A stretch of 64,000 nucleotides of DNA from a virus. Under the pieces are notes generated by a model, which was not told where the DNA came from, did no database searches, and saw nothing but the letters and a program-made list of their open reading frames with translations. Position 1 is the first letter of the stretch. Each line of letters opens with the position of its first letter. A program made the position numbers and the translations under genes. Of the stretch, positions 1-54,547 are shown one piece after another. Location of the stretch: positions 26,301-90,300 of the IMG/VR virus record IMGVR_UViG_3300006793_000018; one strand, given 5' to 3'.

Positions 1-2559
1 GCTCATGTGATGAGTCCTTGGGTTCACGAAGGCGATAACATCGTTGAATCAACAAACCATCATTGGTGGGATCTCTATACGCCATGGGGTGGGGTTGGAA
101 GAAGCGTTGAATCTCTGCGACAAATGTTTGAACAATCTTATCCAAAGTGGTTTGGTCAAGGGTGGATTTCCGATATGCTCATCAACGAGAATGCCTCTGC
201 ATTCATGCAATATGAGCATGACGGAGGAAGTCACTTTCCAAACGCAGTAAATCAGCCAATAGGGGATCCTAATCACCCCTCCCGATCATCAATCAAATCA
301 TCTTTGAATAGTGGAAACTTGTTTGAACAGCGCAGATCAAACTGGAGCCATGGTTCAAACTTGCATTTCTTGCACCCAAGTGAAGTTGAAGGGCAAGGAG
401 GACGGATGATTGTTCCGAGCGACAATCTCATGCTAAGTCGATTGGGAAGATCTTTGGCGAGTCAAGCCGATATGGGTTCTCCTCGAATTGGAATGTTTAG
501 GGAAGAACATCCATCGTCATCAAAGGCTTATTGGGACTCTCACAATGCTTTGTACGCAGCAAATGATATGCATTTGGGGCAAGCAATGTCTAACATGGCT
601 ATGCAAGTTATGAAGCAATTTGGACAGCAAGCGATAAATCCTGATGATCCTACAAATCCTGAGCAAGCCATGATCGCAAGAGGAAATCTCCAACAAGTCG
701 CAAGTGCCGCAGATTTTGCTTTGAAAAAGATGCCAATGGGCGAAACATATCGTGCTTTGGCACCTGGTTATGATCAAATGGGCAACATGAACATGACAGT
801 CAAACCTATGGGTCCAGTCCATCCGATGTCACATGCTACATCACCTCCCGTTTATAACACTGGAAACACACACCTTTGGGGCCACGAAATGCCAGCAACA
901 CTTACTTGGAAGCATGATCCAAAACAAGAGGCGATTGTTTTTGGGATGACGGAAGAACCATTCCAAATTATGCAGAGAACTGCTCATGAAAATCACGTTA
1001 AGGCAGTATTGCCTGAGTTGCTCAAACTACCTGTTGGTGCAAAGCAAAGAGACATTCAAGCATTAAGTTCTCTTGATGGACGGGGGCTTTCTCCTTTGGC
1101 AACAGGAGATATTCACAAATCGGAAGATTACAAAGCAACAGGCGTATTCAAAACTAAGATCATACCTGCTTTCACCGTACAATCTTTGGATGAAATCGAC
1201 AAATTGAAAGGTTTTTCGGGAGATTGGATCGTACAAAAAATGCCTTTGGGCGAGCGTATGTTCATCCAAAAGAAAGGAAATCACATAAAAGGCGGAAAAT
1301 TGCCAAGCGAGGTAAAGAAGGATCTTCGGCAAATAACTGGAGATTTCACATTCGATTCTTACTTTGAAGACAATAAGTTGCATGTTCTTGATCTGTTGGT
1401 TCACAAGGGAACTGACATGCACATGGAGCCACTCGAAGACCGAATCAATGCGTTGAGGACTTTGTACGACTCAACAGATAATGTTCACTTCCCAATGCCA
1501 AGGAATTGTGTATCCACCGATAAAGATGGCTTGGCTAAGGCAATAAGCCCGTGGGATGGAGGGGAACTGTTGCTTCGGGATTCAACATCGACTTTCATGA
1601 AAGAGAAAGAGGTACATCCAAAATGGGTTCGCTATGCTAAGGACAGCATTGCAAAGTCATTTTATCCGCCGATGCCCGAAATTATAGCGTATCCAGATCA
1701 GATCAAATTGGTTTATCCCTCAATACTCGATCCAGTTGTGATCAAAGGAACGTTTCAAAATTCTGTTTTCACAGTTGATAGCATTGAGGGGAATGAGGCA
1801 TTATTTGCAAAGTCCGAAAGAGATGCTCCAATTTGGGGTCCAGTTGCTATTGCCTTGCTCAAGGAAGGTGCTGCTGCTGCTGCATCGGGCGGCGGTGGTA
1901 CAGTGACATCAACTGATTCTGGTACATTTAATCCAATTCATTCATCACAAAAAAGACGCCCTCGTAAATTGAAGATAGCCAAGAAATCTATTCTTCGTGC
2001 GCCAGCAATCGAAGGAGTTGGAGAGCAAGGCGACAATGTTGCAAGCAGGATGGGAAGTGTGAGGAGAGCGATCACCAGTGATAACAAAGCAAAGACAACT
2101 GAGAAGTTGTTGTCCATGGTGAAGGGGTTGAATAAAAAAATGCTTGAGATGTTCGCAGGTGAATACGGCATTGAACGAACGGATGATGGAGAAAAGTGGA
2201 CTGTTAATCAAGCGATTGACGATGACATCATCGAACGAATGTTTCCTCGAATGAATCGAATTTCACCAGATGGTGGCGCATGGGCGGGTATGCAAGCCGA
2301 TATTACTGCCCCAACGGGTCCAACTGAACTTTTGGACGATAGTGCTGTCACTTTTTATGATCCTAAACAAGAGGAAGAACCCGTTGAACAAGATCCGGTT
2401 TTTCATCTCAAAGTGAAGAACGGAGATGATCAATCCACAAGCCTTGACGTGGCTGAGGGTAAGGCTACATTGCGTATGCCAAGAAAAACAGAAACAGAAC
2501 TGCAAGAAGAACAAGAAGTGCAGCCCAGTGATCGTTCCGAGACAGATGATTCATACTGA
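1..2559 (+). CDS. Virion-region protein with DNA-ligase-like nucleotidyltransferase domain (5' partial)
   Basis: The frame is open to the left edge, so the true start lies outside the window. About 850 residues are visible, counting from the GTG at position 7. The middle (about residues 385-545) resembles the adenylation domain of ATP-dependent DNA ligases. KMPLGER at nt 1237-1257 looks like motif I (KxDGxR) with one extra residue. HVLDLLVHKGTDM followed by PLEDR (from nt 1381) looks like motif IIIa, GGELLLRDS (from nt 1558) like motif IV with the usual Glu displaced, and KWVRYAK like motif V. A Gly-rich linker, a basic stretch and an acidic C-terminus follow. Its position just before the prohead protease is where a portal or portal-associated head protein normally sits, but I see no portal signature. 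Nicking, capping or structural use of the fold is unknown. The ligase-like fold is an inference from motif order. Confidence 0.6.
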   Translation, partial: AHVMSPWVHEGDNIVESTNHHWWDLYTPWGGVGRSVESLRQMFEQSYPKWFGQGWISDMLINENASAFMQYEHDGGSHFPNAVNQPIGDPNHPSRSSIKSSLNSGNLFEQRRSNWSHGSNLHFLHPSEVEGQGGRMIVPSDNLMLSRLGRSLASQADMGSPRIGMFREEHPSSSKAYWDSHNALYAANDMHLGQAMSNMAMQVMKQFGQQAINPDDPTNPEQAMIARGNLQQVASAADFALKKMPMGETYRALAPGYDQMGNMNMTVKPMGPVHPMSHATSPPVYNTGNTHLWGHEMPATLTWKHDPKQEAIVFGMTEEPFQIMQRTAHENHVKAVLPELLKLPVGAKQRDIQALSSLDGRGLSPLATGDIHKSEDYKATGVFKTKIIPAFTVQSLDEIDKLKGFSGDWIVQKMPLGERMFIQKKGNHIKGGKLPSEVKKDLRQITGDFTFDSYFEDNKLHVLDLLVHKGTDMHMEPLEDRINALRTLYDSTDNVHFPMPRNCVSTDKDGLAKAISPWDGGELLLRDSTSTFMKEKEVHPKWVRYAKDSIAKSFYPPMPEIIAYPDQIKLVYPSILDPVVIKGTFQNSVFTVDSIEGNEALFAKSERDAPIWGPVAIALLKEGAAAAASGGGGTVTSTDSGTFNPIHSSQKRRPRKLKIAKKSILRAPAIEGVGEQGDNVASRMGSVRRAITSDNKAKTTEKLLSMVKGLNKKMLEMFAGEYGIERTDDGEKWTVNQAIDDDIIERMFPRMNRISPDGGAWAGMQADITAPTGPTELLDDSAVTFYDPKQEEEPVEQDPVFHLKVKNGDDQSTSLDVAEGKATLRMPRKTETELQEEQEVQPSDRSETDDSY

Positions 2560-2617
2560 TTGTTCTCTTTTCGTTTTGAAAGCATTCATATACCATTGCT
2601 TGATTTAGGATAGGTTG

Positions 2618-4003
2618 ATGACGGCAGCAAACCTCTCAGTATCCTCCGCAACATGGTCTGCGGATGGCTCTGATTTTTTGCTAAAATCTGCTGCATCAAA
2701 CGGCGATCTATTCGTCGCAGGATATGCATCGGTCGATATGGTCGATAAGCAGGGAGATCGTATCCCAGTCCCTGCGCTAAAGAAGGCATTCAATCAATTC
2801 ATGGGCAACAAGGCATTCCGCAATGTCCAGTTGGCACACTCTGGCATCCAAGTTGGAGAAGTTGTTTCCGATTACAAAGATACAGAAGGCCGACTTTGGA
2901 AATCCGAAGTCGATGATCATGGATTGTTCGTTGTTTGCAAGATCCGCAACGACATTCAAAAGGCACGTGAAGTGCAGAAGCAAATCCGCAATGGAGAACT
3001 ACGGGCGTTCTCAATTGGCGGTCAGGCACTATTTCGTGTGTCGAAAACAACCCCCGAACTCGGTACTCATCGTGAGATTACCGACCTTGAACTCCATGAG
3101 ATCACACTCTGCAAGAAGGGAATCAACCCTGAAGCAGCGTACACGATCCTAAAAATGGACGGAGATGACAACATGAGCAATACAGAAGTGTTAAACGAAA
3201 TTAAGGCAGGACTTTCCGAAGTTCTCAAAGAATTGAATGAAGGAAAGTCGGATGCAAAGACTGACGACAAATACATGAAAAATGTCGATTGTGACGATGA
3301 GGGCAACCCTATCGGACAAAAAGGCGATGACAAGATGAAGAAAGCCCAACAGGACGACGCTCTTGCATACATCGATACCCTCGAAAAGTTCGCTCACCAA
3401 TCTGGTGTTGATCTCGACGGACTCCGTGATCACTTTGGTTTGGAGAAGGCTTACCTTCCAGAACAAGGATCTGGCGGATACTCTCACCGAGGACAAGGCG
3501 ATGAAGTTGGATCTGGCGAAGATGCAACCGAACCATCGTACCCATCTCTCCCAAGTCCTGGCGGCAACCAATATGTGATCAAGGGGCCAAGTGTTCCTAA
3601 CATGAACATGGGCGCACCATCGGGCAACCAAAACGTCATCAAGTCCCTCACCCCAGAAACTCTGGAAAAGGGATACCGAACCTACGCTGCCCTTCGTGAC
3701 GAAGAAGCCGTGAAGGGTCTTGTCGAAAAGGAATGGCAGGAACGCTACAACGCAGAAACCGCACAGGCTCTCGAAGTTCGCAAAGCCAACGATGTCGGCG
3801 CACAAATCCACGCTCTCCGTGAAGAGATCTCGATGCTCAAGTCAGAGAATGTCGATCTCCAAAAGAGCGCAACCCCTGTGCCATCCGCACCAACCACTTC
3901 CATCCGAGTACCAACCCACGATGAATTTTCCCAAATGGGATCTGACCTCGAAGGCTGGCGAGCCGCAGAAGCACTTGCTATGCGAGCATTGCGAGGGGAA
4001 TAA
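2618..4003 (+). CDS. Prohead maturation protease with C-terminal scaffold-like region
   Basis: HK97-type prohead serine protease (S78 family), which cleaves scaffold and capsid precursors inside the prohead. The N-terminal 180 residues carry the fold: GYASVDMVDKQGDRI near the start, QLAHSG with the catalytic His (about residue 74) and RAFSIGG with the nucleophilic Ser (about residue 132). A conserved ELHEITLCKKGINP strand ends the domain. Residues 185-461 are acidic, Gln/Gly-rich and partly coiled-coil (a heptad-like stretch near 395-415), as expected for a fused scaffolding domain. A separate scaffold gene is absent. A TTG codon lies immediately upstream, but the ATG at 2618 sits better behind the AGGATAGG ribosome site. 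It lies directly before the capsid gene. Confidence 0.9.
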   Translation: MTAANLSVSSATWSADGSDFLLKSAASNGDLFVAGYASVDMVDKQGDRIPVPALKKAFNQFMGNKAFRNVQLAHSGIQVGEVVSDYKDTEGRLWKSEVDDHGLFVVCKIRNDIQKAREVQKQIRNGELRAFSIGGQALFRVSKTTPELGTHREITDLELHEITLCKKGINPEAAYTILKMDGDDNMSNTEVLNEIKAGLSEVLKELNEGKSDAKTDDKYMKNVDCDDEGNPIGQKGDDKMKKAQQDDALAYIDTLEKFAHQSGVDLDGLRDHFGLEKAYLPEQGSGGYSHRGQGDEVGSGEDATEPSYPSLPSPGGNQYVIKGPSVPNMNMGAPSGNQNVIKSLTPETLEKGYRTYAALRDEEAVKGLVEKEWQERYNAETAQALEVRKANDVGAQIHALREEISMLKSENVDLQKSATPVPSAPTTSIRVPTHDEFSQMGSDLEGWRAAEALAMRALRGE

Positions 4004-4024
4004 TCAAAACAGGAGAGATGAAGA

Positions 4025-5179
4025 ATGACGCAAGGATACATCCGAACAATCGAAGACATGGAACGCCTTTACTACGGTGCTGGCGCAGGATCGAACGCAT
4101 GGGCATACAGTGGAACTGACCTACTCAAGGCAGACTCACCTTTGATGTCCTCAACCGCTGGAACTTACAACGCCATCTTTGGCCGTAAGGTTTGGTCGCA
4201 ACTCAACCAAGAATTCAACGCTTTCTCAATTCTTCCTAAGAAGCCTTGGGAAAAGAGTGGATGGCGTGTCGTGACCGGCAAGCCTGACGAAGCCAGTGGA
4301 CTTCCTGAAAACGGAACCCTCCCTGACTCCACCAAGCCAACCTTCCACGAAGTCAGCACCAAGCCAAAGACCATTGCAAGCAAGTTCGACTTGAGCGAAA
4401 CCGCAATGTTCCTTGCAGACAAGGACGATGGACTTGGCGATGCACGTGCTGTGATCAAGATGGAAATGTCGAAGTCTCACGCTGAGTCGATCAACAAGAT
4501 GCTCCTTCGAGATGTCAACGTCGTCGCTGGAAACAACTTTGAATCCATTGACCGTGCAATCTCCTCCTCCTTCGTTGAGAAGTCTGGAATGTCCGACATC
4601 AGTTCCGCAGCAGTTCACAACCAATACAGTCTCACCCGTGACTCCTCTGGTGCTACTTCCCGTGAATGGTACGACGCCAACGTCGATGCTGGTGCAAACG
4701 GTGCTTCCAACGAACGCCCTCTCACCCTCAACATCTTGGATGGAATGTTCCGAGCAGTTTGGGAACGGGGAGGTCAGCCAAAGGTTATCCTCACTGGATA
4801 CGACACTGTTGAGAAGATCCAACAACTCCTTCAACCACAACAACGGTTCACTGAGATGAAGCGCGTCACGCCTTCCGTCAACGGTGTTCAAGGTGTTCCT
4901 GGTATGGATGCTGGATTCGTCGTTGCAACATACAACGGCGTCCCGATCATTCCTTCCAAGGATGTTCAAGATGATGGTCTTTCTCGACTATACTTCATCG
5001 ACACTGACTACACCTACTTCTGCACGGCTAAACCAACTCTTTACCACGAATCTGGTATCGAAACTGGCGATCCATTCGGTATCAACCGTCTTGGACAAGT
5101 CGGCCTATTCCACACAATGGGCGAACTCTGGCAACTCTTCTATGGCGCACACGGCAAGATCCGAGATCTTAGTGCCTGA
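4025..5179 (+). CDS. Major capsid protein, HK97 fold
   Basis: 384 residues, the usual size for a processed or delta-domain-free HK97-fold capsid protein. It directly follows the protease and has a strong ribosome site (AGGAGAGATGAAG before ATG). The N-arm is followed by an E-loop-like region (residues about 75-110, WEKSGWRVVTG to LPENGTLPD), a spine helix (KSHAESINKMLLRDVN, about 145-160) and a C-terminal P/A-domain with ILTGYDTVEKIQ and a late segment naming the ligand-free beta sheet (SRLYFIDTDYTYF). Codon use is very biased to C-ending codons compared with neighbouring genes, which suits very high expression. Identity rests on gene order and overall pattern rather than a single diagnostic motif. 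Confidence 0.88.
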   Translation: MTQGYIRTIEDMERLYYGAGAGSNAWAYSGTDLLKADSPLMSSTAGTYNAIFGRKVWSQLNQEFNAFSILPKKPWEKSGWRVVTGKPDEASGLPENGTLPDSTKPTFHEVSTKPKTIASKFDLSETAMFLADKDDGLGDARAVIKMEMSKSHAESINKMLLRDVNVVAGNNFESIDRAISSSFVEKSGMSDISSAAVHNQYSLTRDSSGATSREWYDANVDAGANGASNERPLTLNILDGMFRAVWERGGQPKVILTGYDTVEKIQQLLQPQQRFTEMKRVTPSVNGVQGVPGMDAGFVVATYNGVPIIPSKDVQDDGLSRLYFIDTDYTYFCTAKPTLYHESGIETGDPFGINRLGQVGLFHTMGELWQLFYGAHGKIRDLSA

Positions 5180-5206
5180 AGACAAAAAACATGGAGATGA
5201 TGAAAC

Positions 5207-5596
5207 ATGGCAAACACAAACCTAACAAGCGGAACAATTGTCGCTGATGTCCCAATGTGGGCTGGCGTACTCGAAGAAAGCAACACCGACTGGCTACAAG
5301 AGCCAATCGGTACGAACACGGCTGCTGGCGCAGTTCAAATGATGATCATTGATTTGGTCGTCACAAGCAACGCCGCAACCGTCTTCGATCTTGCTGATGT
5401 CGCAACTGGCACTCGACTGGATTTCCAGGGCGACACCGCCCACGGAGCAGCCGTTATTGCTGTCCTTGGCATTGAGAACCGAACTGGTGGACACGAAGAC
5501 ATGACCTTGGTACGTGGAGAAGGAGCGCAAGTTCTCTTCACCGCACCATCTGGCGTTTCAGGCGACACAGTTCGATTGACCATCATGTACCGTTGA
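5207..5596 (+). CDS. Small beta-rich virion protein, possible capsid decoration protein
   Basis: 129 residues, Ala/Gly/Thr/Val-rich, with alternating hydrophobic strands and no predicted membrane segment. It sits immediately after the capsid gene behind GGAGATGATGAA, the place where capsid decoration or head-stabilising proteins are usually encoded. Like the capsid gene it has optimised C-ending codons, suggesting an abundant structural product. No family was recognised, so the decoration role is inferred from position, size and composition only. Confidence 0.6.
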   Translation: MANTNLTSGTIVADVPMWAGVLEESNTDWLQEPIGTNTAAGAVQMMIIDLVVTSNAATVFDLADVATGTRLDFQGDTAHGAAVIAVLGIENRTGGHEDMTLVRGEGAQVLFTAPSGVSGDTVRLTIMYR

Positions 5597-5606
5597 GGTG
5601 ATCCCT

Positions 5607-5975
5607 TTGGGATACACAATCACATATGTCGGCGCAAAAGCGTACATTGAATTTGACGTCAACGGAACAAGTTATGGTTTCGCACGTGGCGATCCCAAAA
5701 CAAACATTCCAGACTCATGGATCGAAGAACGAATTCTCGGCGGCATTGACAACGGATCAACTTCTTGGAAAGTTGTCAGCGATGTTGCTGAGAAAAAGAC
5801 TGAGGCCATGAAAGAAGTTGTTGAGGCTACCGTCGAACCCGTTGAGGAAGCAGCACTTGCTCCCGAAGATCTTTCGACATTATCCCGTGCCAAATTGATG
5901 GCTTTGTGCAAGGAACGAGGCATTGATGTCTCTAACCGCGACAAGAAAGCCGATCTGCTTGAAAAGTTGGCATGA
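5607..5975 (+). CDS. Small protein with C-terminal SAP-type helix-extended-loop-helix domain
   Basis: About 122 residues. The N-terminal part is a small beta domain, the middle is a Glu/Val-rich linker, and the last 35 residues (LSRAKLMALCKERGIDVS then KKADLLEKL) match SAP/HeH domains, which usually bind DNA or act as a small hinge. SAP or HeH tails are known on Rho N-terminal domains and on small phage head-joining proteins. The TTG at 5607 is preferred because GAGGTGAT lies four bases upstream. An upstream GTG (5598) would overlap that ribosome site. A second SAP protein lies at 11785. Confidence 0.65.
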   Translation: MGYTITYVGAKAYIEFDVNGTSYGFARGDPKTNIPDSWIEERILGGIDNGSTSWKVVSDVAEKKTEAMKEVVEATVEPVEEAALAPEDLSTLSRAKLMALCKERGIDVSNRDKKADLLEKLA

Positions 5976-22752: not shown

Positions 22753-25700
22753 ATGGCAGATGTATTTCCTCGTTCATTTTATCCAGCCAAATATCGGCTG
22801 ATGGGTAAAACAGCAGATGGTATGCCAAAATCGGGCATCATGTCAATGCACATCACTTACCCTGATACTGAATATGATCATGAAGACATAGAAGATTGGG
22901 AGTCGGGAGTAAATTCGACTGACTGGCGTCAAGGCGTGACGGTGTTGATCAGAACAAACTTGGCGGCGGCATCTTCATCAATAGCAGAAGCAAAAAATGT
23001 CATCGCAGTTGATCTCAAGCAACAACGCATTGATCACGCAAGCGCAGTTCATACTTACGATCTGGGAACAGAAGAAGCAACGCGTTTTATTGCTGCTAAA
23101 ATCAATTCTCGAAGAATCAAAATGGTTGGAGAGCGAGACAAGACATCGTACCTAAAAGCAAGATATGTCCGTCAATCGATGGATCAAAAATACAAGATTG
23201 AGAGCCTTACATACTTCAGTGGATCTTCGGTGATCGCTAAAATCAAAACATTGGGCAGCACAGGCTTCCCAACTGAAATGATTGGTCATTACCAATTAAG
23301 AATTGACGGCACAGGAGGAGGTTCAAAGTATCTCAACATAGGCACATATGATTTGAGTGCGATTCCAACTTTGCTTTACAGAAGTGGAAACTACTCATAC
23401 GTGACGTTCAGTTCCACCGGATACACATTTACTGGAAGCCCATCGGCTGGCGATTCATTGTCGAGCGTCGGTGTGTCTTTGACAACAGATGTTGGAGCAA
23501 CTCACACCGTTGTTTTAGCATGGCAGAAAATAACGCCTCATTCTTACTGGTCGGAAGCAAACTTAGGCCCAGTTGTCCAAGGAGTTGGATCGATTGGACT
23601 TCACAAATTTGTTGCAAAACCTATGGATGGGGGAAACATGGGCTTACCGGCAACAAACCACCACACGAAAAACGGTCGAGAGGCAGTTGCTTTCACAACT
23701 GGGAACGGGTACAATCGATTTAGCATTGAGGGGCTGAATTCGTGCAATATGCCGTCGATACCCCCTCCTGACTATCACATTACTTCGCCTCACATCGAAG
23801 GGATAACCTCTCTGCATCCAAATACGATCTCCGATATTGCTTCAAATCAATTGAGAATTGAGAGGCTGGAGGGGGGCGTGGAATTGCCTGTTGTTTCCAC
23901 AAGTCATAAAATCGCTCTTGAGAATGGATACGAGGGATCCTTCTCATCGGCTACGACAGCATCAATTTACAAGGATGGAGCAGATCCTCATTTGACTAAT
24001 TTTTCAATGGCGACCATCCACCAAACGCACGGGATCAAGGATTCAAATCAAGAAGCCTATGCGCGTCCCTTTAGGATGACTGGTACTACAAATGAGAATC
24101 GAGTGACTGGCCTTAACATCAGCAATGAAGAACGGGTTTTTGATGACATTGAGGTCTTGGATGGTCAAGGCAACAAATTGGTTTTGAAGGGAAAATCGCC
24201 ATGGGGGACGATTATTCGGGATTTCACATTCTCAAATGAACGAGAAAATCCATTAACAGGCTTAGTTGAGGTTGGCCCATCTTCGCCAGGGGGAAATCTA
24301 ACTCCGAATCTCAAGATTCAATTACCATCACAAGATGATATACCAGGCGGTATATTTGTTCGTTCTGGTCATGATCGAGTGCAAGCATGGTCAGACAAAA
24401 CATGGGGTATGGGCGGATTATCAGCCCCAAATCCGAGAAAAGCGGGAGTTGCTGAGAACAGCAATGAAACGTCCCAATTCGATACTCATGATCGAATGCT
24501 CATTTTTCATTGTCAGCGGATTCTTCATGACAAACTGGAACAGTACCATGGCCTAAACCTTCGCGCTGAGGACGGTGGTGCGAGAAGTGGGCAAACTCGT
24601 TTGTTTGCATCGCACAGAATCTCTGATCATGCAGAGAGAGGAAGTGTTCTCAAACAGACAAACAATGGTGTCGAAACTGGAAATTTGATACCTCATCACC
24701 GAATTAGATTTGCTCGATACGGACATTCATTCGTTTCTCCAACTCTTCATCGGGGTACTCCGATGAGCATGAGGCGTCAATTACATCGATCACATGGATC
24801 TGCTTATTCACTGATGTTTGAGGGAGAAACTGAATACAAACACCATGGGTTTGGCAGCGGAGACAACACAAATTCTGCAACTGTTTTTGAGTTGGATACG
24901 CTGGAAGCAAAAGTGAGTTCTTCTTATGCGACAGGATCGTTTGCAGGTGATGGGATACCATTGAGTGAGTTGAAAGGTATGAGATTGCCGGATGTTGACG
25001 GTTCATACACCTCTGTTAATCACCGCAATTGTTTGGATTATCTCTTCGCACCAGGTCAGGAACACACCAAGGCAGAGGGCATAAGCCAATCAGTTGAGTT
25101 CGCTCTTGCTTCTGCATCATTATCAGGATCAAAGTCTGCAACACGCTTGACTGTTCAGGGCGGAACACTGACCGAAAATAATCGATTTGGTACTGCGAAT
25201 GAGTTCATGATCAATGGATTTATGCTAAATCAGTATTTAGGCATGGGTGGGCGTTTAGAACCAATTCGCAAATTAAGCGCAGATAGCACAGGAAATTGGT
25301 TTGTTCGAGGTTTTGCAGAAGGGGTTATCCGTCCACGTGTAGCGACTGAATTGGCAACAGTTCCACCATTGTTCGCCCACGATCCAGAACTGTTGAACAT
25401 GAATGCTGCGCCGGTCAGCCTCAGCAACACTGTTCCAAGCACATCTTTCAATAAACCAAGTGACGCAGATCACGGTTTAATCAAAGACGCCGACACGTTC
25501 AGCGGAGCCAAACCAGATGCTTTCCTATGTAACTGGCTTGCAGAATATAGCCACCCTTCATTATTTGGCACAAGCAGAGAACATTTCTTGATGTTCCGAT
25601 ACCGTGAAGCAGGGATGCCTCGATCAAGAGATTACCCTGCTGTAAATGGTTTGTTCTTAAGAAATGCATCGCACCCAACAACAGATGCTCAACCATTGAA

Positions 25701-28700
25701 GAGTTCGGCTTTTGAACGCCTTTACATTGCTCAATGGCTACAAAATTGGGGATTCAATGGATTAAATGCAAGTGGTCATGGAAATATCGAAGGACTTCGA
25801 GGTGCAGGGGCTGTACGGATGGGTCATTCCACAATTCGTGAGGCAAGTGGGACTCTGCGACTAAGAAGTGAGAATTCAAACGGAAATCGATTTTCGAGAG
25901 GAGAAGGTATTGGAGATGGCATAGATCCCACTAAAGAAATCGGTGTTGTCATGGGCATTGACAAGGATACAGACAATGAAGACTTCAACAAGCAATTCTT
26001 CACGTTCCAACCTTGCGTTGCGATTGATGTTAGTCGCCGCTTGCCTGTGCGATCATGGGGCTTCCGAACCGGATCCGATGCCTTGAATATGCTTGCAGGA
26101 GATCCGAATGAGGCAGATGCAGGAAATTCCCAAGCGATGTTAAACAGTGGCAGGTTCGACGGAGGCATACATGACTCTGTTCAAGACCTTGCATCTCCGT
26201 TCTCAATTTCGGATGGAATTGATTGGGGGAATTACGGAACCACTTTAGGAATTGAACGATCTGTTCCTGTTGGTTTCGTAGCAAATGATTTCACAGTTGA
26301 GGCTATGAAGGACGAAAGAAACATTCGTCAAAGCAATGAATTGCTAAGTCCAAATGAAAAAATTGGTATTGGGAACAGAGTTGGCATCACGCAAAACGGT
26401 ATGCTTTCCCCTCATGTTATGGCATCAGGTGGATGGGATTACGAGTTGGATGATACACGCCCAACCGAACTGCCAATATCAGGAGCCAGTCTTTGGCTGA
26501 AAGCGGATGCCCTCGATCTTCAAGACGGAGATGCAATCACCTCTTGGATTGATTCATCTGGAAATGACATCGAATTTGTTCAAGCAACCGCTTCCGCACA
26601 ACCCACATTTGTCAAAAGCAATGCTAACTTCAACAATATGCCCGTAGTTGATTGTGATGGAAACGATAAATTGCTATCGGCGGCGGGGTATTTGGAGTCA
26701 TTGAATACTGCTCAATTTACTCTCTTTGCAGTAGCGTGTTCGGATACAGATGATAACTCATATCAAGGAATTATCTCTTCTCGACGCGCACCTGTCGGAT
26801 CTCCGAGTCGTCAAGGATTCAACCTTTACGCCAAGTGGTCAGGGACCGATCAATGGGGATTTTGGTGGGGTCAAAACACAGGATGGGGGCAACTTTACAC
26901 TTCTTCTGTTGAGAATCGAATGAATGTTGGAATACCTGATGTCGTTGCTTGCGTGATGAGTGGAGGAGATGGTGCAGGGGCTACTGCCGCTCAAACCCTT
27001 CGAGTCAATGGATGTCAAGAAGCAACAGCAACCAATGCCTTTTGGCGGATGACGGCGGGTCAAACCTCAATTGCGAATGTTCCAAGTCCCTATTTCCTTC
27101 AAGGACAAATCGCTGAGATCATCCTTTATCCAAGAGCATTAACCACAGATGAAATCAAAGAGGTTGAGTCCTACTTGTCACGAAAATATGACAAAAAATT
27201 CACGGCAACTGCTTCGCCTCACCCTGCTTTGTATTATGATCTTAACACAAAACCGTTGAACAAGGGGACGGATCCATGGATTGACTTGCAACAATGGACA
27301 GGATCTGCGTCCTATGATCAAACGCTGTCGCCAAGTGCTAAAATTGCTCAAACAACAGATTTCGTCACTGGATCTCAATTTTATCACCTTCGTGGAAATG
27401 CGTTACACACCAATATGAGGCCGATAACAAAGACGTTGGGTACATATTCGTATCCTCCAAACGGTCAAAGTCAAATTTCGGGTTCTTCATTGACAGTGAA
27501 CGAAGCCATGCCGCTGCTGACCTCAGAAATCTCCGATATAAGACAAATTCAATCGAGGGCAGAACCTCGTCTTGGTTTGGTCATGGAAGTTGAAAGTGAA
27601 AGAATAGAAAATAAGAAGGTCCAATACGGAGTGGTTGGAACAAGGTCTGTTTCTTTGCATTCCGATTTAATGCTTGGATACCACTTCCCTGTCTTGCCAT
27701 CGCACCAGATCAAATCTCAATTGCAGTTAGAAGGCTTCACAGTCGATGGTGCAGGAACTGCAACGGCTGAAAAAGACTTCACCACTAAGCCAACTTGGAG
27801 TCCCGATTCAAATGCTTCAAAAGGAGCAATAGTTCTAACTGGGGATTCTGTACGAATGGATCACAAGACACATGCTTTGGATGCATGGGCTGTCAGAGGT
27901 TCCGCCGATCTTCCAGCGTGGGGAGGAGTGTATATTTTGCGAAAAACATACATCTCACGCAATGGCGAAGACACTATGAAATCTCAAGTTGATTCAAACA
28001 CTGGAAAGGCTGTTGCTTCACATCCAGTTCGCAAATATGTTGACTATATTGTTCGACCAGTTCGACCACTGAAATTGTTTGCTTTTGCTTCCGATCTTTT
28101 ACAAGATGGTTTTGTTTTGGGTCCAAGAGCATCCCTATCAGGAACATACGATAAATACGGATCTCAAATTTTTACGAGAGACAAGAGGTATGGAATCTTT
28201 GAAATGAATGCGGATCGAGATTTGGGAGAGGTTGAACCAATCACTTCGGCAGAAGGTTCGTTTGAGATTTCGTACCCAGATTTCAATGAATTTGATGTTG
28301 TTTGGCATTTAATTCCAAGTGCTAATATGCTTCAATTTGCAAAATCCGACGCTCATCGAATATCAAACGATGAGATCATGCAACCATCCATAGAGCCACG
28401 GTATTCTCAGTCATCCCACGTTGGAGGAGGCGGCAAAATCAGCCAATCGGAAACGCTTTACGACACCTCAAAGGGCATAATGGGCGATCACGCCATACAT
28501 TCAAAGGATGGAGAAATCAGTCAATCACAAGATGCTCTCCGCTTGTATCCGAGGGTGAAGGTGATGACTAACAAAGGGGCTAATGTATATTCCTTGGATG
28601 ATGCGTCTGTTCTTCCAAAAGGGGGCGGCAAGATATTTGCGTTAAACCATTCGGGCGTTTTGACTTACTCATCCATAGAAGGCGATGACATCACGATCTC

Positions 28701-30279
28701 GTCAGGAACCTTGGCAGATCTAACTGGGGCAACTGTATCCGATTATGTTGGCATGACTTGGTATTACACAGATGTTTCGTCCTTAACTGAGGTGGGGACT
28801 CTCTTTGATGCAAGAAGTACGGTGAGGAAACAGGTGGTTGCACCTTCTTTCATCGACAATGCAGTTGTTGTATCAAAAATCCAAAGACACACATGGCCGT
28901 TTTACAATCGAGAGAAGAATACAGTGGAAAAAACAACGCTCTCATTCCAAGGATTACTGCATTACGAACCGTCCGATTTCGTCATGGCTCAACAAAATTC
29001 ATTCTCCTTAACCAACGGTAAGGATCGGGGCGTCATTCAATCAAAGGGTGAAACTCAAAGGATCAAACATGATGGACTAAATATCAATGAATCTCAATTC
29101 CCTCCGCATGTTATCGATGGCAACAGAAACAAGTGGACGGTTGCCAGTGTCAAAAACGATTTAGACACCGACTACATGTCCTTTAATGACCTAAGCGAAA
29201 AGAATTTGAAAGATTCTGGCATCGATATTTCCAACCTTCGAGGAGTTCAGTTAGGAAACATAGGTATGAGAAGCACCGATGCAGCAATGAGATTATTGAA
29301 TGACGCTGGAGGCGACTTTGCCGGTATTCGATTAGCAAAACCAGATCAGGTATCAGTTGGCAACAAAATCAACAAAAACACAGACTCTCATCCGATATTG
29401 AAAGAGCGAAATCAACACAGTGACATATTTGTATCGAGAGATGCAAGAGGTTTGAACACTATGGATGTGATCCGAAATCTCTCTCAAATCGATAATCGTC
29501 AAATAATCAATTACCGAGCAGGTCAACTTGTTTATTCCGACAAGGTGTTTGACGATACAGGTTTGAGTTTAGGTGTGGAAAATGGAGCCGAAGACATCAT
29601 CGTTAGTCGTTTGTTCGATTCACCAAACGAAATTGTGATCGTAGGGGATGTGATTTCTGGAAATGAGATTGTGTTTGTTCGTATTCAAGACAGTGAACGA
29701 ATTAGGGAATCTGCGGCTAACGGAGAAGAAGGTTTGGTCAAGACATTGCGTCAACAGATACCTGGTTTGAAGACAGTGAAGGAAGCAAGATCCATCGCAA
29801 AGGCTTTGCTCTCCCGTGTTGAAAATGGTGCGCCGATGATACGAATAAGAGGTTTAATGAATGCCACATCGGTTTCAGCAGGTGATCTTATTTCAGTGAA
29901 TCTTCCAACTCACGGAGTTGTCGGAAAGTTTGCTGTGTTTGAAGCAGAGCATACTCATTCCACTGGTAAAACAAATCTTGTGATTGCACAGTATGAGAAA
30001 GGTATCGAAGGAATACTCGCAGATCTTCGTACAGAATCTGTTGTGGTCAGTGGATTGAACAGTTCATCAGCAGATGAAAAAGACATCAAAAACATATCGA
30101 TGTCCACATCTATTCAAATCGTTGCAGTTCATCGACTATCTGTGAGGAACACAAATAATACAGGTTTTGTGATAGGTGCAAAACACAAAAACGGCCTTGG
30201 AAGCATAGGTGTTCGGGATAATAACAAAAGGGGTGTACCCCTCGGTTCAAGCAAGAGCCGTAAGTACGTGGTGAAATGA
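22753..30279 (+). CDS. Giant tail tip / baseplate protein with internal LamG-like domain
   Basis: 2508 residues, the largest gene in the window, behind a GGTGATGTAA ribosome site. Residues about 1240-1483 (nt 26473-27200) form a LamG-like domain of the same subtype as in the upstream 778-residue protein (GASLWLKADALDLQDG, SWIDSSGNDIEF, AEIILYPRALTTDEI, SYLSRKYDKKF). The last 300 residues (AGDLISVNLPTHGVVGKFAVFE, then TNLVIAQYEKGIEG) have the strand pattern of baseplate-hub C-terminal domains. The rest is Asn/Ser/Gly-rich and unrecognised. It is probably the receptor-contacting central tail protein. Confidence 0.65.
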   Translation: MADVFPRSFYPAKYRLMGKTADGMPKSGIMSMHITYPDTEYDHEDIEDWESGVNSTDWRQGVTVLIRTNLAAASSSIAEAKNVIAVDLKQQRIDHASAVHTYDLGTEEATRFIAAKINSRRIKMVGERDKTSYLKARYVRQSMDQKYKIESLTYFSGSSVIAKIKTLGSTGFPTEMIGHYQLRIDGTGGGSKYLNIGTYDLSAIPTLLYRSGNYSYVTFSSTGYTFTGSPSAGDSLSSVGVSLTTDVGATHTVVLAWQKITPHSYWSEANLGPVVQGVGSIGLHKFVAKPMDGGNMGLPATNHHTKNGREAVAFTTGNGYNRFSIEGLNSCNMPSIPPPDYHITSPHIEGITSLHPNTISDIASNQLRIERLEGGVELPVVSTSHKIALENGYEGSFSSATTASIYKDGADPHLTNFSMATIHQTHGIKDSNQEAYARPFRMTGTTNENRVTGLNISNEERVFDDIEVLDGQGNKLVLKGKSPWGTIIRDFTFSNERENPLTGLVEVGPSSPGGNLTPNLKIQLPSQDDIPGGIFVRSGHDRVQAWSDKTWGMGGLSAPNPRKAGVAENSNETSQFDTHDRMLIFHCQRILHDKLEQYHGLNLRAEDGGARSGQTRLFASHRISDHAERGSVLKQTNNGVETGNLIPHHRIRFARYGHSFVSPTLHRGTPMSMRRQLHRSHGSAYSLMFEGETEYKHHGFGSGDNTNSATVFELDTLEAKVSSSYATGSFAGDGIPLSELKGMRLPDVDGSYTSVNHRNCLDYLFAPGQEHTKAEGISQSVEFALASASLSGSKSATRLTVQGGTLTENNRFGTANEFMINGFMLNQYLGMGGRLEPIRKLSADSTGNWFVRGFAEGVIRPRVATELATVPPLFAHDPELLNMNAAPVSLSNTVPSTSFNKPSDADHGLIKDADTFSGAKPDAFLCNWLAEYSHPSLFGTSREHFLMFRYREAGMPRSRDYPAVNGLFLRNASHPTTDAQPLKSSAFERLYIAQWLQNWGFNGLNASGHGNIEGLRGAGAVRMGHSTIREASGTLRLRSENSNGNRFSRGEGIGDGIDPTKEIGVVMGIDKDTDNEDFNKQFFTFQPCVAIDVSRRLPVRSWGFRTGSDALNMLAGDPNEADAGNSQAMLNSGRFDGGIHDSVQDLASPFSISDGIDWGNYGTTLGIERSVPVGFVANDFTVEAMKDERNIRQSNELLSPNEKIGIGNRVGITQNGMLSPHVMASGGWDYELDDTRPTELPISGASLWLKADALDLQDGDAITSWIDSSGNDIEFVQATASAQPTFVKSNANFNNMPVVDCDGNDKLLSAAGYLESLNTAQFTLFAVACSDTDDNSYQGIISSRRAPVGSPSRQGFNLYAKWSGTDQWGFWWGQNTGWGQLYTSSVENRMNVGIPDVVACVMSGGDGAGATAAQTLRVNGCQEATATNAFWRMTAGQTSIANVPSPYFLQGQIAEIILYPRALTTDEIKEVESYLSRKYDKKFTATASPHPALYYDLNTKPLNKGTDPWIDLQQWTGSASYDQTLSPSAKIAQTTDFVTGSQFYHLRGNALHTNMRPITKTLGTYSYPPNGQSQISGSSLTVNEAMPLLTSEISDIRQIQSRAEPRLGLVMEVESERIENKKVQYGVVGTRSVSLHSDLMLGYHFPVLPSHQIKSQLQLEGFTVDGAGTATAEKDFTTKPTWSPDSNASKGAIVLTGDSVRMDHKTHALDAWAVRGSADLPAWGGVYILRKTYISRNGEDTMKSQVDSNTGKAVASHPVRKYVDYIVRPVRPLKLFAFASDLLQDGFVLGPRASLSGTYDKYGSQIFTRDKRYGIFEMNADRDLGEVEPITSAEGSFEISYPDFNEFDVVWHLIPSANMLQFAKSDAHRISNDEIMQPSIEPRYSQSSHVGGGGKISQSETLYDTSKGIMGDHAIHSKDGEISQSQDALRLYPRVKVMTNKGANVYSLDDASVLPKGGGKIFALNHSGVLTYSSIEGDDITISSGTLADLTGATVSDYVGMTWYYTDVSSLTEVGTLFDARSTVRKQVVAPSFIDNAVVVSKIQRHTWPFYNREKNTVEKTTLSFQGLLHYEPSDFVMAQQNSFSLTNGKDRGVIQSKGETQRIKHDGLNINESQFPPHVIDGNRNKWTVASVKNDLDTDYMSFNDLSEKNLKDSGIDISNLRGVQLGNIGMRSTDAAMRLLNDAGGDFAGIRLAKPDQVSVGNKINKNTDSHPILKERNQHSDIFVSRDARGLNTMDVIRNLSQIDNRQIINYRAGQLVYSDKVFDDTGLSLGVENGAEDIIVSRLFDSPNEIVIVGDVISGNEIVFVRIQDSERIRESAANGEEGLVKTLRQQIPGLKTVKEARSIAKALLSRVENGAPMIRIRGLMNATSVSAGDLISVNLPTHGVVGKFAVFEAEHTHSTGKTNLVIAQYEKGIEGILADLRTESVVVSGLNSSSADEKDIKNISMSTSIQIVAVHRLSVRNTNNTGFVIGAKHKNGLGSIGVRDNNKRGVPLGSSKSRKYVVK

Positions 30280-38816: not shown

Positions 38817-40148
38817 TCACCACAATGTCATTTGCTTCCTTGCCTTCGGCTTGCTCCGATTTGACAAGTCTGCTGAGTCCATCATATCAATTCTCTCTCC
38901 GATCCATTGCATAACTGGAACCGCCATGCTATTTCCAAGACCTTTGTATCGATGTGAATCAGGGCATTCCTCTGCTGGTTTTCCCTTCCACGGAACTTTT
39001 GTGTAGTTATCGGGAAATCCTTGGAGCCGTTCGCATTCAAGTGGAGTTAGCCTACGAACGATGGCATTTTCTCGAATTGCTGCATAACCTTGCCCCGCTA
39101 ATCCTCCTCCACTTGTAAGGCTCATGTGTCGTTCTGGCGTTTCCCAAATATCGCCATTGCCTTTGCTCACAATACCCGCCACCTCTTTTTGCTGCATAAC
39201 TGCTGGTGCGCCATGACCTCCCGCTGTTCTTAATGGGCAATGGAGATCTCCTGTCAACTCTTGATTGAATAAATCGACGCCTTGTTGCTGGAAGGCTGAT
39301 TTTTGCACAACTAACGCTTCATGCTCAACCCTTTGGTTTCCTGTTCGAGAATAAGGTGGACCGCTTGCCCCCATAGTGGGTCCGACCTTTTCAGCATGAA
39401 TGATTCCCTTTTCCATAATCAAATGAGCATTGGTTCCTAAGCATTGGTTGTTGATCGAGCCATGATGATACATACCTGCCGTCAAAGATCCAGCAGGTTT
39501 TTCTTCACTTATTCCTCTTCCAACAGGTCTGCTCTCGCTTCCAAAGCCGAACGCAGAGAGGGATTGATCTTCTTCCCTCTTTTGTCTGCTCGACGCAAGA
39601 TTCCCCTGGAGGCTCTGCTTGTCAAATAGTACCGCTGCGGCACTTCTCCAATCTCCGTCAGCACATCCGACAACGAAGATTCGACGCCTTCGTTGGGGTA
39701 CTCCGAAGTGTTGAGCGTCAAGAACTCGATAGGCGAACCCATACCCGAGTTTCGCCACTTCTCCGAGGAAGATGGCAAAATCATCTCCTTCGTTTGATGA
39801 CAATAGACCTGGGACATTTTCATAGAGGAACCACTTTGGGCGAACTGCCCCAACAACTCGGAGATAGTGGAGGGCCAAGTTGCCACGTGGATCATCCATT
39901 CCAAGTCGCTTTCCTGCGACAGAAAAGGATTGGCAGGGGCTTCCTCCGACGACGAGATCGGCTGCTCCTTCATATTTTGACCAGTCAACATTCAACACAT
40001 CCTTGAGGTTGGGTACATTTGGATAATGGTGAGCAAGCACCGCAGATGGAAAATCATCAAAGTCAGCAAAGGCAACAGGATCCCAATTGAGATTTCGCCA
40101 TCCAACTGAACACGCTTCGATTCCGCTAAACAGGCTGATATATCGCAC
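38817..40148 (-). CDS. DNA (cytosine-5) methyltransferase
   Basis: 443 residues with all classical C5 motifs: I (ISLFSGIEACSVGW), IV (GGSPCQSFSVAGKR, catalytic Cys72), VI (YENVPGLLSSN), VIII (FGVPQRRRRIFVVG), a variable target-recognition region (about 185-380) and IX-X near the end (RRLTPLECERLQGFPD; YKGLGNSMAVPVMQWIG). Length is normal and residues are intact, so it is probably active. No cognate endonuclease is adjacent. It may protect viral DNA from host restriction. Distinct from the late methylase-like gene at 33262. Confidence 0.92.
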   Translation of the reverse strand: MRYISLFSGIEACSVGWRNLNWDPVAFADFDDFPSAVLAHHYPNVPNLKDVLNVDWSKYEGAADLVVGGSPCQSFSVAGKRLGMDDPRGNLALHYLRVVGAVRPKWFLYENVPGLLSSNEGDDFAIFLGEVAKLGYGFAYRVLDAQHFGVPQRRRRIFVVGCADGDWRSAAAVLFDKQSLQGNLASSRQKREEDQSLSAFGFGSESRPVGRGISEEKPAGSLTAGMYHHGSINNQCLGTNAHLIMEKGIIHAEKVGPTMGASGPPYSRTGNQRVEHEALVVQKSAFQQQGVDLFNQELTGDLHCPLRTAGGHGAPAVMQQKEVAGIVSKGNGDIWETPERHMSLTSGGGLAGQGYAAIRENAIVRRLTPLECERLQGFPDNYTKVPWKGKPAEECPDSHRYKGLGNSMAVPVMQWIGERIDMMDSADLSNRSKPKARKQMTLW

Positions 40149-41211: not shown

Positions 41212-42198
41212 TTATTCCTCCTCTAAATTTACTTCGATCAAGTTGTGTATTTTCATCTCATTAGGAGATGCCAGCATATCACAGGCAGGTGGTTCTTCAT
41301 CTATGAATTTTGGATTCATTCTTTCAATGGCTTCATCGCTATCGAAATCAGCCAAGGACATTTGTCCAGTGGCAGTGAAGGATACAGCCTTGCAGGAGTT
41401 GCAATCATACAATCCTTTCTTTGGCAAGGGTTTGTACCCCTCTTTGAATCGGCTTTCCAATTCCTCTAACAGGTATCCATCCTTGCCAGGTTTCATTGAT
41501 CTTAGGCCATGATTGCTGACCTTGACACTTTCCTTGTCCCAATGCTTTGCAATTTCCCACAGATCGGGATAGCCACGCCAAAGCGACCACCATGAATCAA
41601 GAGGCTGTTTGATACAATGAAAGCAACCGAGGCGATTGAAATTGACATACAACTCATTGACCAAATTGCGTTCGTCAAGATAGCGCATACAATCGGCTTC
41701 CGACCATCCCCACTCGACCAAAGGGTATCTGTTCTTGTCGTTTCGTTTGTCTTCCTTCTTGCCGACTCTATGGGCTTCGTCGGCGGCAATGCCGATATAA
41801 ACGACGTCGCAATCCGCTTGAGCCTTTTGCAAAGGCTGCACCTTGGCTTCTCTTGCCCAATAGCAAGGGTACGCTCTAAGGGGTGCGCCACGTTGTTTTC
41901 CTTTGTTGTTCCCTCTGGAGATCACACCATAGAACCAGTCGTCCCATGTTCGAGGAGATCCAACAAAATCAACTTTCAAATCCAATTCGGGATATGTTTT
42001 TTGAATGTACGCCTCGATCATTCGGATGTATTCGATCAACTCAGGCAATTCAAATCCTGTGTCTGCAAATGTGATCTTGGTAATTGGGTATCGTTTATCC
42101 CCCTGTGTCCATAACTCAAGCATACGCAAGAGCATGGCTGCGCTGTCCTTGCCACCGCTGAATGCAACCATTCCTGTCTTAGGGAATTCATCCTCCAT
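41212..42198 (-). CDS. PP-loop protein of the PAPS reductase / DndC-like family
   Basis: 328 residues with the PP-loop VAFSGGKDSAAMLL near the N-terminus. The order FADTGFELPELIEYI, then YPCYWAREAKVQP and GIAADEAHR follows the PAPS reductase fold. Four further cysteines (GCFHC; CNSC) suggest a metal or Fe-S site as in DndC-type enzymes. Substrates could be PAPS or an activated nucleotide or thiol donor. Full Dnd (DndBDE) or cysteine desulfurase is not present in the window, so a role in phosphorothioation is unproven. It sits beside the Cas4-like and methyltransferase genes. Confidence 0.8.
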   Translation of the reverse strand: MEDEFPKTGMVAFSGGKDSAAMLLRMLELWTQGDKRYPITKITFADTGFELPELIEYIRMIEAYIQKTYPELDLKVDFVGSPRTWDDWFYGVISRGNNKGKQRGAPLRAYPCYWAREAKVQPLQKAQADCDVVYIGIAADEAHRVGKKEDKRNDKNRYPLVEWGWSEADCMRYLDERNLVNELYVNFNRLGCFHCIKQPLDSWWSLWRGYPDLWEIAKHWDKESVKVSNHGLRSMKPGKDGYLLEELESRFKEGYKPLPKKGLYDCNSCKAVSFTATGQMSLADFDSDEAIERMNPKFIDEEPPACDMLASPNEMKIHNLIEVNLEEE

Positions 42199-52939: not shown

Positions 52940-54547
52940 TCACATCGGAGATTTTGCGCCTTCAGGATTCATGCGAATGACATCATCAATTCGCAAGATC
53001 ATAATCGCCGCTTCTGTTGCAGAAGTCAAGGCTTGAGTGTGCAAAGACAAAGGCTCAACCAATCCGGTTTGACGGGCATGGGATGGTGTTTCTGCGTTTT
53101 CGATATTGATATGCCATGGCTCACCAGGTCCGGTGGCGTGGTAATGCAGCAAAGATGAACGTGCATCAACTGGGTCTAATCCCGCATTTTCTGCAATGGA
53201 CTCAGGAATTGACATCAATGCTTCACGATATGCTTCGATAGCCATTCCGACTCTCCCGTTGCCGTGCTTTCGATCCATCTCGTCAACCGACAGTGATCCG
53301 TACAAGTGTGCATGAGTGGCTCCTCCTCCAGGGAGAACCTCTTCATTCCAAGCAAGCCAGCATACCCCAACCGCGTCTTCGAGGGCGCGTTCAATCTCCT
53401 CTGCCACATGGCGAGTTGCCCCACTTGCAATGATAGTTGCATGAGTTTGGTATTTGCTTGATCTCGCCGTGATGAATACCAATTCATTATCGAACTTCTC
53501 GTTTAGATGGTAATCTCCACGGCCCAAGTTATCCTTTCCAATTGGCTGCGATAGCGATGAAACGATGGTTCCACCTGTTTCTTTAGCGAGCGATACCAAA
53601 GAAGACTTTTGCACATTGTCGATCACAACAATTCCCCCTTTCAAGAGATAATGCAAAGCCAAGTCGTCCACCTTCTTTTGGGTGAAAACCACTTCTGCCT
53701 TTGATTCGATGATCTTATCGACCATCTCTTTGATAGCATCCTCTTCCTGTTGCAAGAAAGAAGCCACTTGATCTGGAGAGGTGATTTGAACCTGAGCATC
53801 CATTTTGGTATCCCTTGGCTCAATTCCTGTATCCAAAAGGAGAATTGGAGCGTCTAAGATGTCTTTCTTCATGGAAGGATTGCACAATGGCCTCTCCACC
53901 ACAACACCACTGACAAGCATCGTGTCGAGTTCCCCCTTCCCGCTGGCTGAGAGGATTTGGATGTCTTCAAAAGATTCGACCGCTTGTACCGCTCGATCAC
54001 AGATGTCCACTAAGAAAGACCGAATCCCCTCAGCAGATTTGCCCGTTAAAGACGTTGAAGCGGCGGCTTTGTGCTTTTCTTGGAGTTCTTTCAGTTGAAT
54101 GTCTTTTGTCTTGACCCATTCCTTCAACTCTTTGACACAATAATCACGCGCCATGCGGTATCCTTTGATGATCGTAGTGGGGTGGATATTCTTGTCAAGG
54201 AGCCGTTCTGCCTCAGCCAATAATGCGCCAGCCAATACTACCGCAGAAGTTGTACCATCGAAACACTTGTCTTCTTGTGTCTTGGCGACCTCAACAATCA
54301 TCTTGGCCGCAGGATGTTCAATCCCGATCTCCCGCAGAATGGATACACCATCGTTCGTGATTAGGATATTCCCCGCAGGGTCGATCAACATCTTGTCCAT
54401 TCCAAGAGGTCCGAGAGTTGAGCGGATTGCATCTGCAACTGCCTTCGCTGCTCCAATGTTTCCTCGTTGAGCGGCTGAACCATTGGTCTGTTGCGTTCCA
54501 TTCTTCATGATATACACGGGTTGTTGTGAATTGCCTTGGGGTTGCAT
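52940..54547 (-). CDS. Group II chaperonin (thermosome) subunit
   Basis: 535 residues, full length for a thermosome subunit. Motifs: GPLGMDKMLID, TNDGVSILREI, DGTTSAVVLAG (usual GDGTT with Phe in place of the first Gly, residue 96), GGGATHAHL (GGGA-E with His/Thr), then AGLDPVDARSSLL. C-terminal GGM repeats typical of cellular subunits are missing. It folds proteins in ATP-driven rings. Viral copies are known in marine archaeal viruses. A five-base-pair hairpin overlaps its ribosome site (54553-54565). It may fold capsid or tail proteins. Confidence 0.93.
   Translation of the reverse strand: MQPQGNSQQPVYIMKNGTQQTNGSAAQRGNIGAAKAVADAIRSTLGPLGMDKMLIDPAGNILITNDGVSILREIGIEHPAAKMIVEVAKTQEDKCFDGTTSAVVLAGALLAEAERLLDKNIHPTTIIKGYRMARDYCVKELKEWVKTKDIQLKELQEKHKAAASTSLTGKSAEGIRSFLVDICDRAVQAVESFEDIQILSASGKGELDTMLVSGVVVERPLCNPSMKKDILDAPILLLDTGIEPRDTKMDAQVQITSPDQVASFLQQEEDAIKEMVDKIIESKAEVVFTQKKVDDLALHYLLKGGIVVIDNVQKSSLVSLAKETGGTIVSSLSQPIGKDNLGRGDYHLNEKFDNELVFITARSSKYQTHATIIASGATRHVAEEIERALEDAVGVCWLAWNEEVLPGGGATHAHLYGSLSVDEMDRKHGNGRVGMAIEAYREALMSIPESIAENAGLDPVDARSSLLHYHATGPGEPWHINIENAETPSHARQTGLVEPLSLHTQALTSATEAAIMILRIDDVIRMNPEGAKSPM

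Follow-up and report, generated by a model that had tools for sequence, protein, structure and literature searches.

The head module of a magrovirus-like genome, which represents an abundant type of tailed archaeal virus from the sea, encodes, between the portal and the prohead maturation protease, a protein containing a domain with the predicted fold of ATP-dependent DNA ligases. Judging from the residues at its active site, this domain has almost certainly lost catalysis. We named this 1141-residue protein LIGL; its C-terminal part is encoded by positions 1-2559 of the window, i.e. of the whole 64,000-nucleotide stretch that was analysed (positions 26,301 to 90,300 of the IMG/VR record IMGVR_UViG_3300006793_000018). 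The explanation that we find rather probable is that LIGL is a magrovirus-like head component with a dead ligase domain, which derives from a portal-adjacent ligase and now binds DNA or the portal. The nucleotidyltransferase superfamily itself is known; what is new here is the pseudo-enzyme state together with the head-module context, and in the literature searched we found no description of a head-module or virion ligase domain in tailed viruses.

The virus and the LIGL gene

The major capsid protein (MCP) of this virus is 33-34% identical to those of HVTV-1 and its relatives (Druskaviridae). Besides a thermosome-type chaperonin and an ERCC4 nuclease, it encodes a protein with weak likeness to primases, a PD-(D/E)XK nuclease and a cytosine methylase, and its structural and replication blocks are transcribed in opposite directions. 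A Druskaviridae-related HK97-type MCP, opposed blocks, a chaperonin, an ERCC4 nuclease and a Poseidoniales host are features of magroviruses (Magrovirales) (PMC10768690, PMC10160649), and all of these apply to the virus studied here. As to the host, a LIGL relative with 41% identity is present in the 106 kb contig CACGHY010000002.1 (L148) of the uncultured Poseidoniales isolate AG-422-I20; the contig carries the same head module, which ties these viruses to a Poseidoniales host. Magroviruses are also reported to encode a family B DNA polymerase (PMC10768690, PMC10160649). Because such a polymerase (PF00136) was not detected in the 90 kb record, we use the term 'magrovirus-like'; an incomplete record or a split or divergent polymerase may account for the negative result. 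On the (-) strand the same virus encodes a PAPS-reductase-type protein (41212-42198), the C5 cytosine methylase (38817-40148) and the thermosome-type chaperonin (52940-54547).

In the window, the LIGL reading frame (+ strand) is open and truncated at its 5' end by the window edge. The complete gene spans 25434 to 28859 of the 90.3 kb record and begins with ATG; the 867 bases between the gene start and the window start (25434-26300) encode residues 1-289. The preliminary description of this locus was correct in placing the protein upstream of the protease and capsid genes, whereas its estimate of about 850 residues covered only what the window edge had left. It had also regarded the site as the one normally used by the portal, which turned out not to be the case. 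The portal, which it had proposed to look for upstream, is a separate gene there, and the order is TerL - 407 aa - portal - 132 aa - 145 aa - 112 aa - 385 aa - LIGL - protease - MCP, so that portal and LIGL are separated by four genes and TerL lies further upstream (Table 1). We also considered LIGL as a portal or a portal fusion and ruled this out, as LIGL has no portal-family match and the portal is encoded separately.

Table 1. Coordinates of LIGL, its parts, its neighbours and the ligase-domain proteins of other viruses. Coordinates refer to the window unless a locus is named; numbers in parentheses are LIGL residues.
Feature	Position	Strand	Basis or remark
LIGL, C-terminal 852 residues (290-1141)	1-2559	+	Gene coordinates in full record
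N-terminal region, in-window part (of 85-640)	1-1053	+	Full-length AlphaFold2 model
Predicted ligase-type nucleotidyltransferase (pseudo-enzyme) domain (about 669-840)	1138-1653	+	Foldseek, VIA, hhalign, PF01068
Motif I remnant QKMPLGER (701-708)	1234-1257	+	Lys position is Met703, Asp/Asn position is Leu705; Gly706 and Arg708 retained
Motif III remnant FDSY (740-743)	1351-1362	+	Asp741 retained; Glu replaced by Tyr743
Motif IIIa, well preserved, LHVLDLLVHKGTDMHMEPLEDR (749-770)	1378-1443	+	Profile alignment, homologues
Motif IV remnant GELLLRD (810-816)	1561-1581	+	Glu replaced by Gly810, Gly by Glu811, Lys by Arg815
Motif V remnant HPKWVRYAK (828-836)	1615-1641	+	Trp831 retained; two lysines replaced by Arg833 and Ala835
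Beta-rich segment, candidate remnant of ligase OB domain (849-896)	1678-1821	+	AlphaFold2 secondary structure
Linker, Gly/Ser-rich, then basic (913-966)	1870-2031	+	pLDDT below 50; least conserved region
Prohead maturation protease	2615-4003	+	PF04586 E 1.2e-9; phrog_23555 E 5.6e-22
Major capsid protein, HK97 type	4025-5179	+	PF17236 E 6.2e-9; phrog_24667 E 6.4e-51
Portal	L024 11336-13132		Upstream of LIGL; phrog_18178 E 4.7e-62; PF04860 E 1.3e-13
Ligase-domain protein, L230	5030-8464
Ligase-domain protein, L239	5241-8531
Ligase-domain protein, L240	5721-11114
Ligase-domain protein, L241	6069-7532
Ligase-domain protein, L242	3575-6034
Ligase-domain protein, L243	7755-10156
Ligase-domain protein, L244	6024-8549
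Ligase-domain protein, L245 (ANMV-1, KP703175)	3200-5800

The N-terminal region of LIGL (residues 85-640) is for the most part confidently predicted by AlphaFold2 to be predominantly helical, a beta layer being formed by residues 540-614; it has no assigned fold and is known only from these viruses. The ligase-type domain is followed by the beta-rich segment, for which model confidence is middling and into which the archaeal ligase 9dfa aligns with a poor fit (202 residues, rmsd 5.1). The linker then joins the ligase-type domain to a conserved C-terminal part.

HVTV-1 likewise has a large protein of several domains whose gene is flanked by a head-assembly gene and that of the protease. This protein, gp115 (L136 4545-8486), has 1313 residues and carries zeta-toxin (E 3.3e-20) and ADP-ribosyltransferase (E 1.4e-8) domains. 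Profile comparison detected no similarity between gp115 and LIGL, its N-terminal region included, and homology of the LIGL neighbour genes to HVTV-1 gp114/gp115 (MuF-like; zeta-toxin/ADP-ribosyltransferase) found no sequence support.

The ligase-type domain and its active site

As a single sequence LIGL has no useful match in Pfam, PHROGs, PDB or phage records, and the ligase fold is revealed only by families of sequences. An alignment of 27 domain sequences gave a confident AlphaFold2 core model (for model residues 81-240, pLDDT averaged over ten residues is mostly 72-90). In a Foldseek search of the PDB with this model, DNA ligases came out on top (E 4.8e-7 for the archaeal ligase 4eq5), and VIA-align superimposed it on both human LIG1 (Z 15.5, rmsd 2.8, 161 residues) and the Pyrococcus ligase (Z 15.2, rmsd 2.7, 161 residues). 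The full-length LIGL model agrees (Z 16.4, rmsd 2.7, 163 residues aligned to ligase), and the match list of a fold search with it was filled by ligases, which left the N-terminal region without an assigned fold. A ligase fold was expected by the preliminary description, which had named its absence from predicted structures as one of two grounds for giving the idea up; with the fold present in both models, this ground falls away.

The profiles point in the same direction. With an E-value limit of 1, PF01068 matches 16 of the 27 domains (best E 5.1e-4), staying under Pfam's curated cut-off for LIGL in genome searches, and an hmmsearch of PDB sequences with the domain profile returned chance-level matches only. 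The HMM-HMM comparison (hhalign) of the 27 LIGL-type domains with 22 true ligase domains gave a probability of 96.6 and an E-value of 5.2e-10. Since the real profile scored 64 and the reversed profile only 13, with no more than 23.5 in 60 column shuffles, the resemblance to ligases is not due to chance. In this alignment, the four motif strings of the preliminary description, present where it had claimed them, fall on ligase motifs I, IIIa, IV and V. Its proposal of a ligase-like nucleotidyltransferase domain in a head-module protein is borne out by the predicted fold and the profile-profile homology, and for LIGL residues about 669-840 we consider the nucleotidyltransferase fold of ATP-dependent DNA ligases confirmed at the level of models and profiles.

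In comparison with ATP-dependent DNA ligases (PF01068; Pyrococcus furiosus 2cfm, human LIG1/LIG3), LIGL is alike in fold (Z about 15-16, 161-167 residues), in motif order and in motif IIIa. It differs in being embedded in a head-module protein, in scoring below the Pfam cut-off, in having neither a confirmed OB domain nor a recognised N-terminal ligase DNA-binding domain and, above all, in its active site, where the catalytic Lys, the motif III Glu, the motif IV Glu and Lys and the motif V lysines are all replaced. Motif I aligns without gaps (WIVQKMPLGERMFI on YIIEKKYNGYRAVV in hhalign), and the residue opposite the invariant catalytic Lys is Met703. The Lys of KMPLGER, for which the catalytic role had been proposed, is Lys702 and lies one residue off.

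Conservation of this Lys in homologues, a check suggested along with that proposal, was not observed either, and the second ground for giving the idea up, homologues without the Lys, does apply at the true catalytic position. Among 75 distinct homologues, position 703 is occupied by K (51), M (21), V (2) or R (1), and position 702 is variable too; most homologues have lysine at 702 and/or 703, and three distinct ones have it at neither. The Asp/Asn position of motif I (705) accommodates K, E, S, N and others, and position 708 is Arg or His. The motif III Glu position is Y, V, F or T. In motif IV, the Glu position is variable and the Lys position is Arg815 in all 75 homologues. At the first Lys position of motif V the homologues have L, R, H, T or C, with K in a single case, and at the second mostly A, P, T or V. 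Catalysis in the covalent nucleotidyltransferase superfamily requires the very residues that are missing in LIGL. Because the catalytic-Lys position varies (K/M/V/R) and the other catalytic positions are lost throughout the 75 homologues, the LIGL domain is almost certainly a pseudo-ligase, as far as can be judged from sequence.

Profile-guided scans of IMG/VR recovered relatives that match LIGL over its full length with identities as low as 37%; one of these scans yielded 119 stretches. LIGL is present in every one of 57 representative loci, and wherever the flank is long enough these have the order portal - small genes - 385-aa gene - LIGL - protease - MCP. In the 75 homologues, the ligase-type domain is the best-conserved part of the protein: the mean majority-residue frequency is 70.5% compared with 57.1% in residues 85-640, and 22% of its columns are invariant compared with 9%. 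The invariant residues are Q701, P704, G706, D741, D753, D761, R770, R815, D816, S819, F821, H828 and W831, and H757 and K758 of motif IIIa are likewise counted among them. Since the domain is the most conserved part and has lost its catalytic residues, selection maintains it, but not for ligation.

Ligase-domain proteins beside the portals of other viruses

When genomes from the phylum to which the Poseidoniales isolate belongs were searched with PF01068, the viral contig L230 was retrieved. It encodes TerL, a portal, a 135-aa protein and, next in line, a 1144-aa protein that combines a metallo-beta-lactamase domain with a ligase domain. The ligase motifs of the latter protein read KIDGMR, FDAEG, FDVYRYKGKDV, EGAMIIWDK and WCKIKK. 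Relatives of L230 are arranged in the same way. In L239, L240, L241, L242 and L244 a portal is located just upstream of a ligase-domain protein, in L243 the upstream gene is of the minor-head type, and in ANMV-1, a virus of ANME archaea (L245), the portal (PF06381 E 3.2e-22) directly precedes the ligase protein. In each of the eight records the PF01068 match is above the cut-off, with E-values from 1.8e-32 to 9e-11. These proteins resemble LIGL in that the ligase domain is part of a large protein encoded soon after a portal or minor-head gene, and they provide the best profile match to it. Unlike LIGL, they have motifs I, III, IV and V mostly intact; they lack its N-terminal region, and some combine the ligase domain with metallo-beta-lactamase, methyltransferase or XkdF protease modules, the last of these in L240.

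Several side observations concern these post-portal proteins. A domain about 115 residues long, in which EEERKKWWP is invariant, is common to six of them (L239 5928-6275; alignment A7), and we found no family name for it; an exact-pattern scan of IMG/VR retrieved only 11 contigs with it, all of them already known. In L239, L240, L242-L244 and L245, a GS...DxD motif like that of Pol-beta-type nucleotidyltransferases can be seen by eye ahead of the ligase domain (L240 VYIVGSTANNGVTKNDVDMLV). A LigD-type phosphoesterase segment, also suspected by eye, is not found by PF13298. Finally, the ANMV-1 protein AJP62005.1 (L245 1913-3193) is labelled 'MutT-like phage hydrolase' and matches the portal family PF06381 (E 3.2e-22), so that the label is probably a misannotation.

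To relate LIGL to these ligases we used profile comparisons in place of a ligase-domain tree, the domain being too degenerate for reliable placement. A profile of seven portal-adjacent viral sequences matches the LIGL domain with E 3.1e-10 (2.4e-8 after realignment), whereas the cellular ligase profile reaches 2.3e-3 and three control sets, two of which include phage replicative ligases, reach 1.9e-5, 1.0e-3 and 8.4e-3. The three best single sequences against the LIGL domain are portal-adjacent too. This better match to the portal-adjacent profile favours a common origin of the two groups, with a profile preference that is moderate and comes from small alignments. The alternative is that the LIGL lineage captured its domain from a replicative or host ligase, independently of the other portal-adjacent ligases, and that the domain then degenerated. 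In favour of such a capture, ligase genes are common in viruses, and LIGL and the other post-portal proteins show no similarity beyond the ligase domain (hhalign probability 0.1 for the N- and C-terminal parts of LIGL). However, the shared portal-side slot and the closer match to portal-adjacent ligases than to the controls speak against independent capture, and we consider it rather unlikely.

Proposed role of LIGL in the virus head

Based on these observations, we propose that LIGL descends from an active, portal-adjacent ligase. The ancestor would have possessed a functional ATP-dependent ligase domain whose gene adjoined that of the portal, an arrangement that persists with intact motifs in other viruses; its simplest role would have been to repair nicks or ends of the genome at the portal during packaging or ejection. 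In the LIGL lineage, catalysis would then have been lost, with the fold, motif IIIa and the invariant residues kept. Today the domain would most likely serve as a non-catalytic clamp that grips DNA or the portal, or as an assembly platform, followed by the flexible basic linker. We infer that LIGL acts in head assembly or is a minor protein of the virion, so that it would be present in the virion or prohead, and it probably binds DNA or the portal. A structural relic was one of the options offered by the preliminary description, and the present data support it.

Contact with DNA might also be dispensed with altogether. LIGL could be an internal prohead core processed by the protease, with the ligase fold acting as a rigid spacer. 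The gene immediately precedes those of the protease and MCP in relatives, and the LIGL model contains long low-confidence linkers, both of which are compatible with a pure scaffold. Nonetheless, the invariant polar residues H757, K758, R815, D816 and H828 suggest a specific binding function, making such a scaffold unlikely. It is far less likely still that LIGL remains active, transferring nucleotides via Lys702 or another lysine and sealing or capping DNA ends, as had been suggested, or modifying some other substrate. That most homologues have a lysine at one of positions 702 and 703, and that Gly706, Arg/His708, motif IIIa and the fold are retained, would be in line with activity, but LIGL itself has Met703 at the catalytic position and three homologues lack lysine at both sites. 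In addition, the Glu of motif III, the Glu and Lys of motif IV and the lysines of motif V are gone, which is beyond what one compensating change could make good, and sealing or capping by LIGL is therefore left unsupported. Lastly, a domain unrelated to ligases, with coincidental likeness of motifs, would agree with the lack of Pfam, PHROG or PDB sequence matches for LIGL as a single sequence, but is contradicted by the Foldseek, VIA, PF01068, hhalign and shuffle-control results to the point of being virtually impossible.

One may go a step further and suggest, quite tentatively and with the odds somewhat against it, an old class of portal-adjacent ligases in archaeal (perhaps also bacterial) tailed viruses. 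These would be repair enzymes integrated into the head or portal apparatus that seal the genome at packaging or ejection, and the magrovirus-like pseudo-ligase, a converted form of them in the virion, would still grip DNA or the portal.

The proposed nature of LIGL also bears on how magrovirus genomes are read. Magroviruses have been described as having an ATP-dependent DNA ligase among their replication and repair genes (PMC10768690, PMC12999244, PMC10160649). In the record studied here, searches with PF01068, PF01653 and PF09414 found no separate ligase, and in 30 related records all PF01068 matches are sub-threshold and fall within a LIGL-sized open frame or a truncated copy of it. Because PF01068 matched LIGL only, both in the record and in its 30 relatives, the 'DNA ligase' label may denote LIGL, in this clade at least; alternatively, these viruses may have no ligase of their own.

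A pseudo-ligase located between the portal and the protease, together with motif-intact ligases that occupy this slot in other viruses, suggests that repair of the genome can be coupled to packaging or ejection. In LIGL an enzyme fold has been put to structural use, and 'DNA ligase' calls in such genomes should be taken with caution, as they may denote a dead structural protein.
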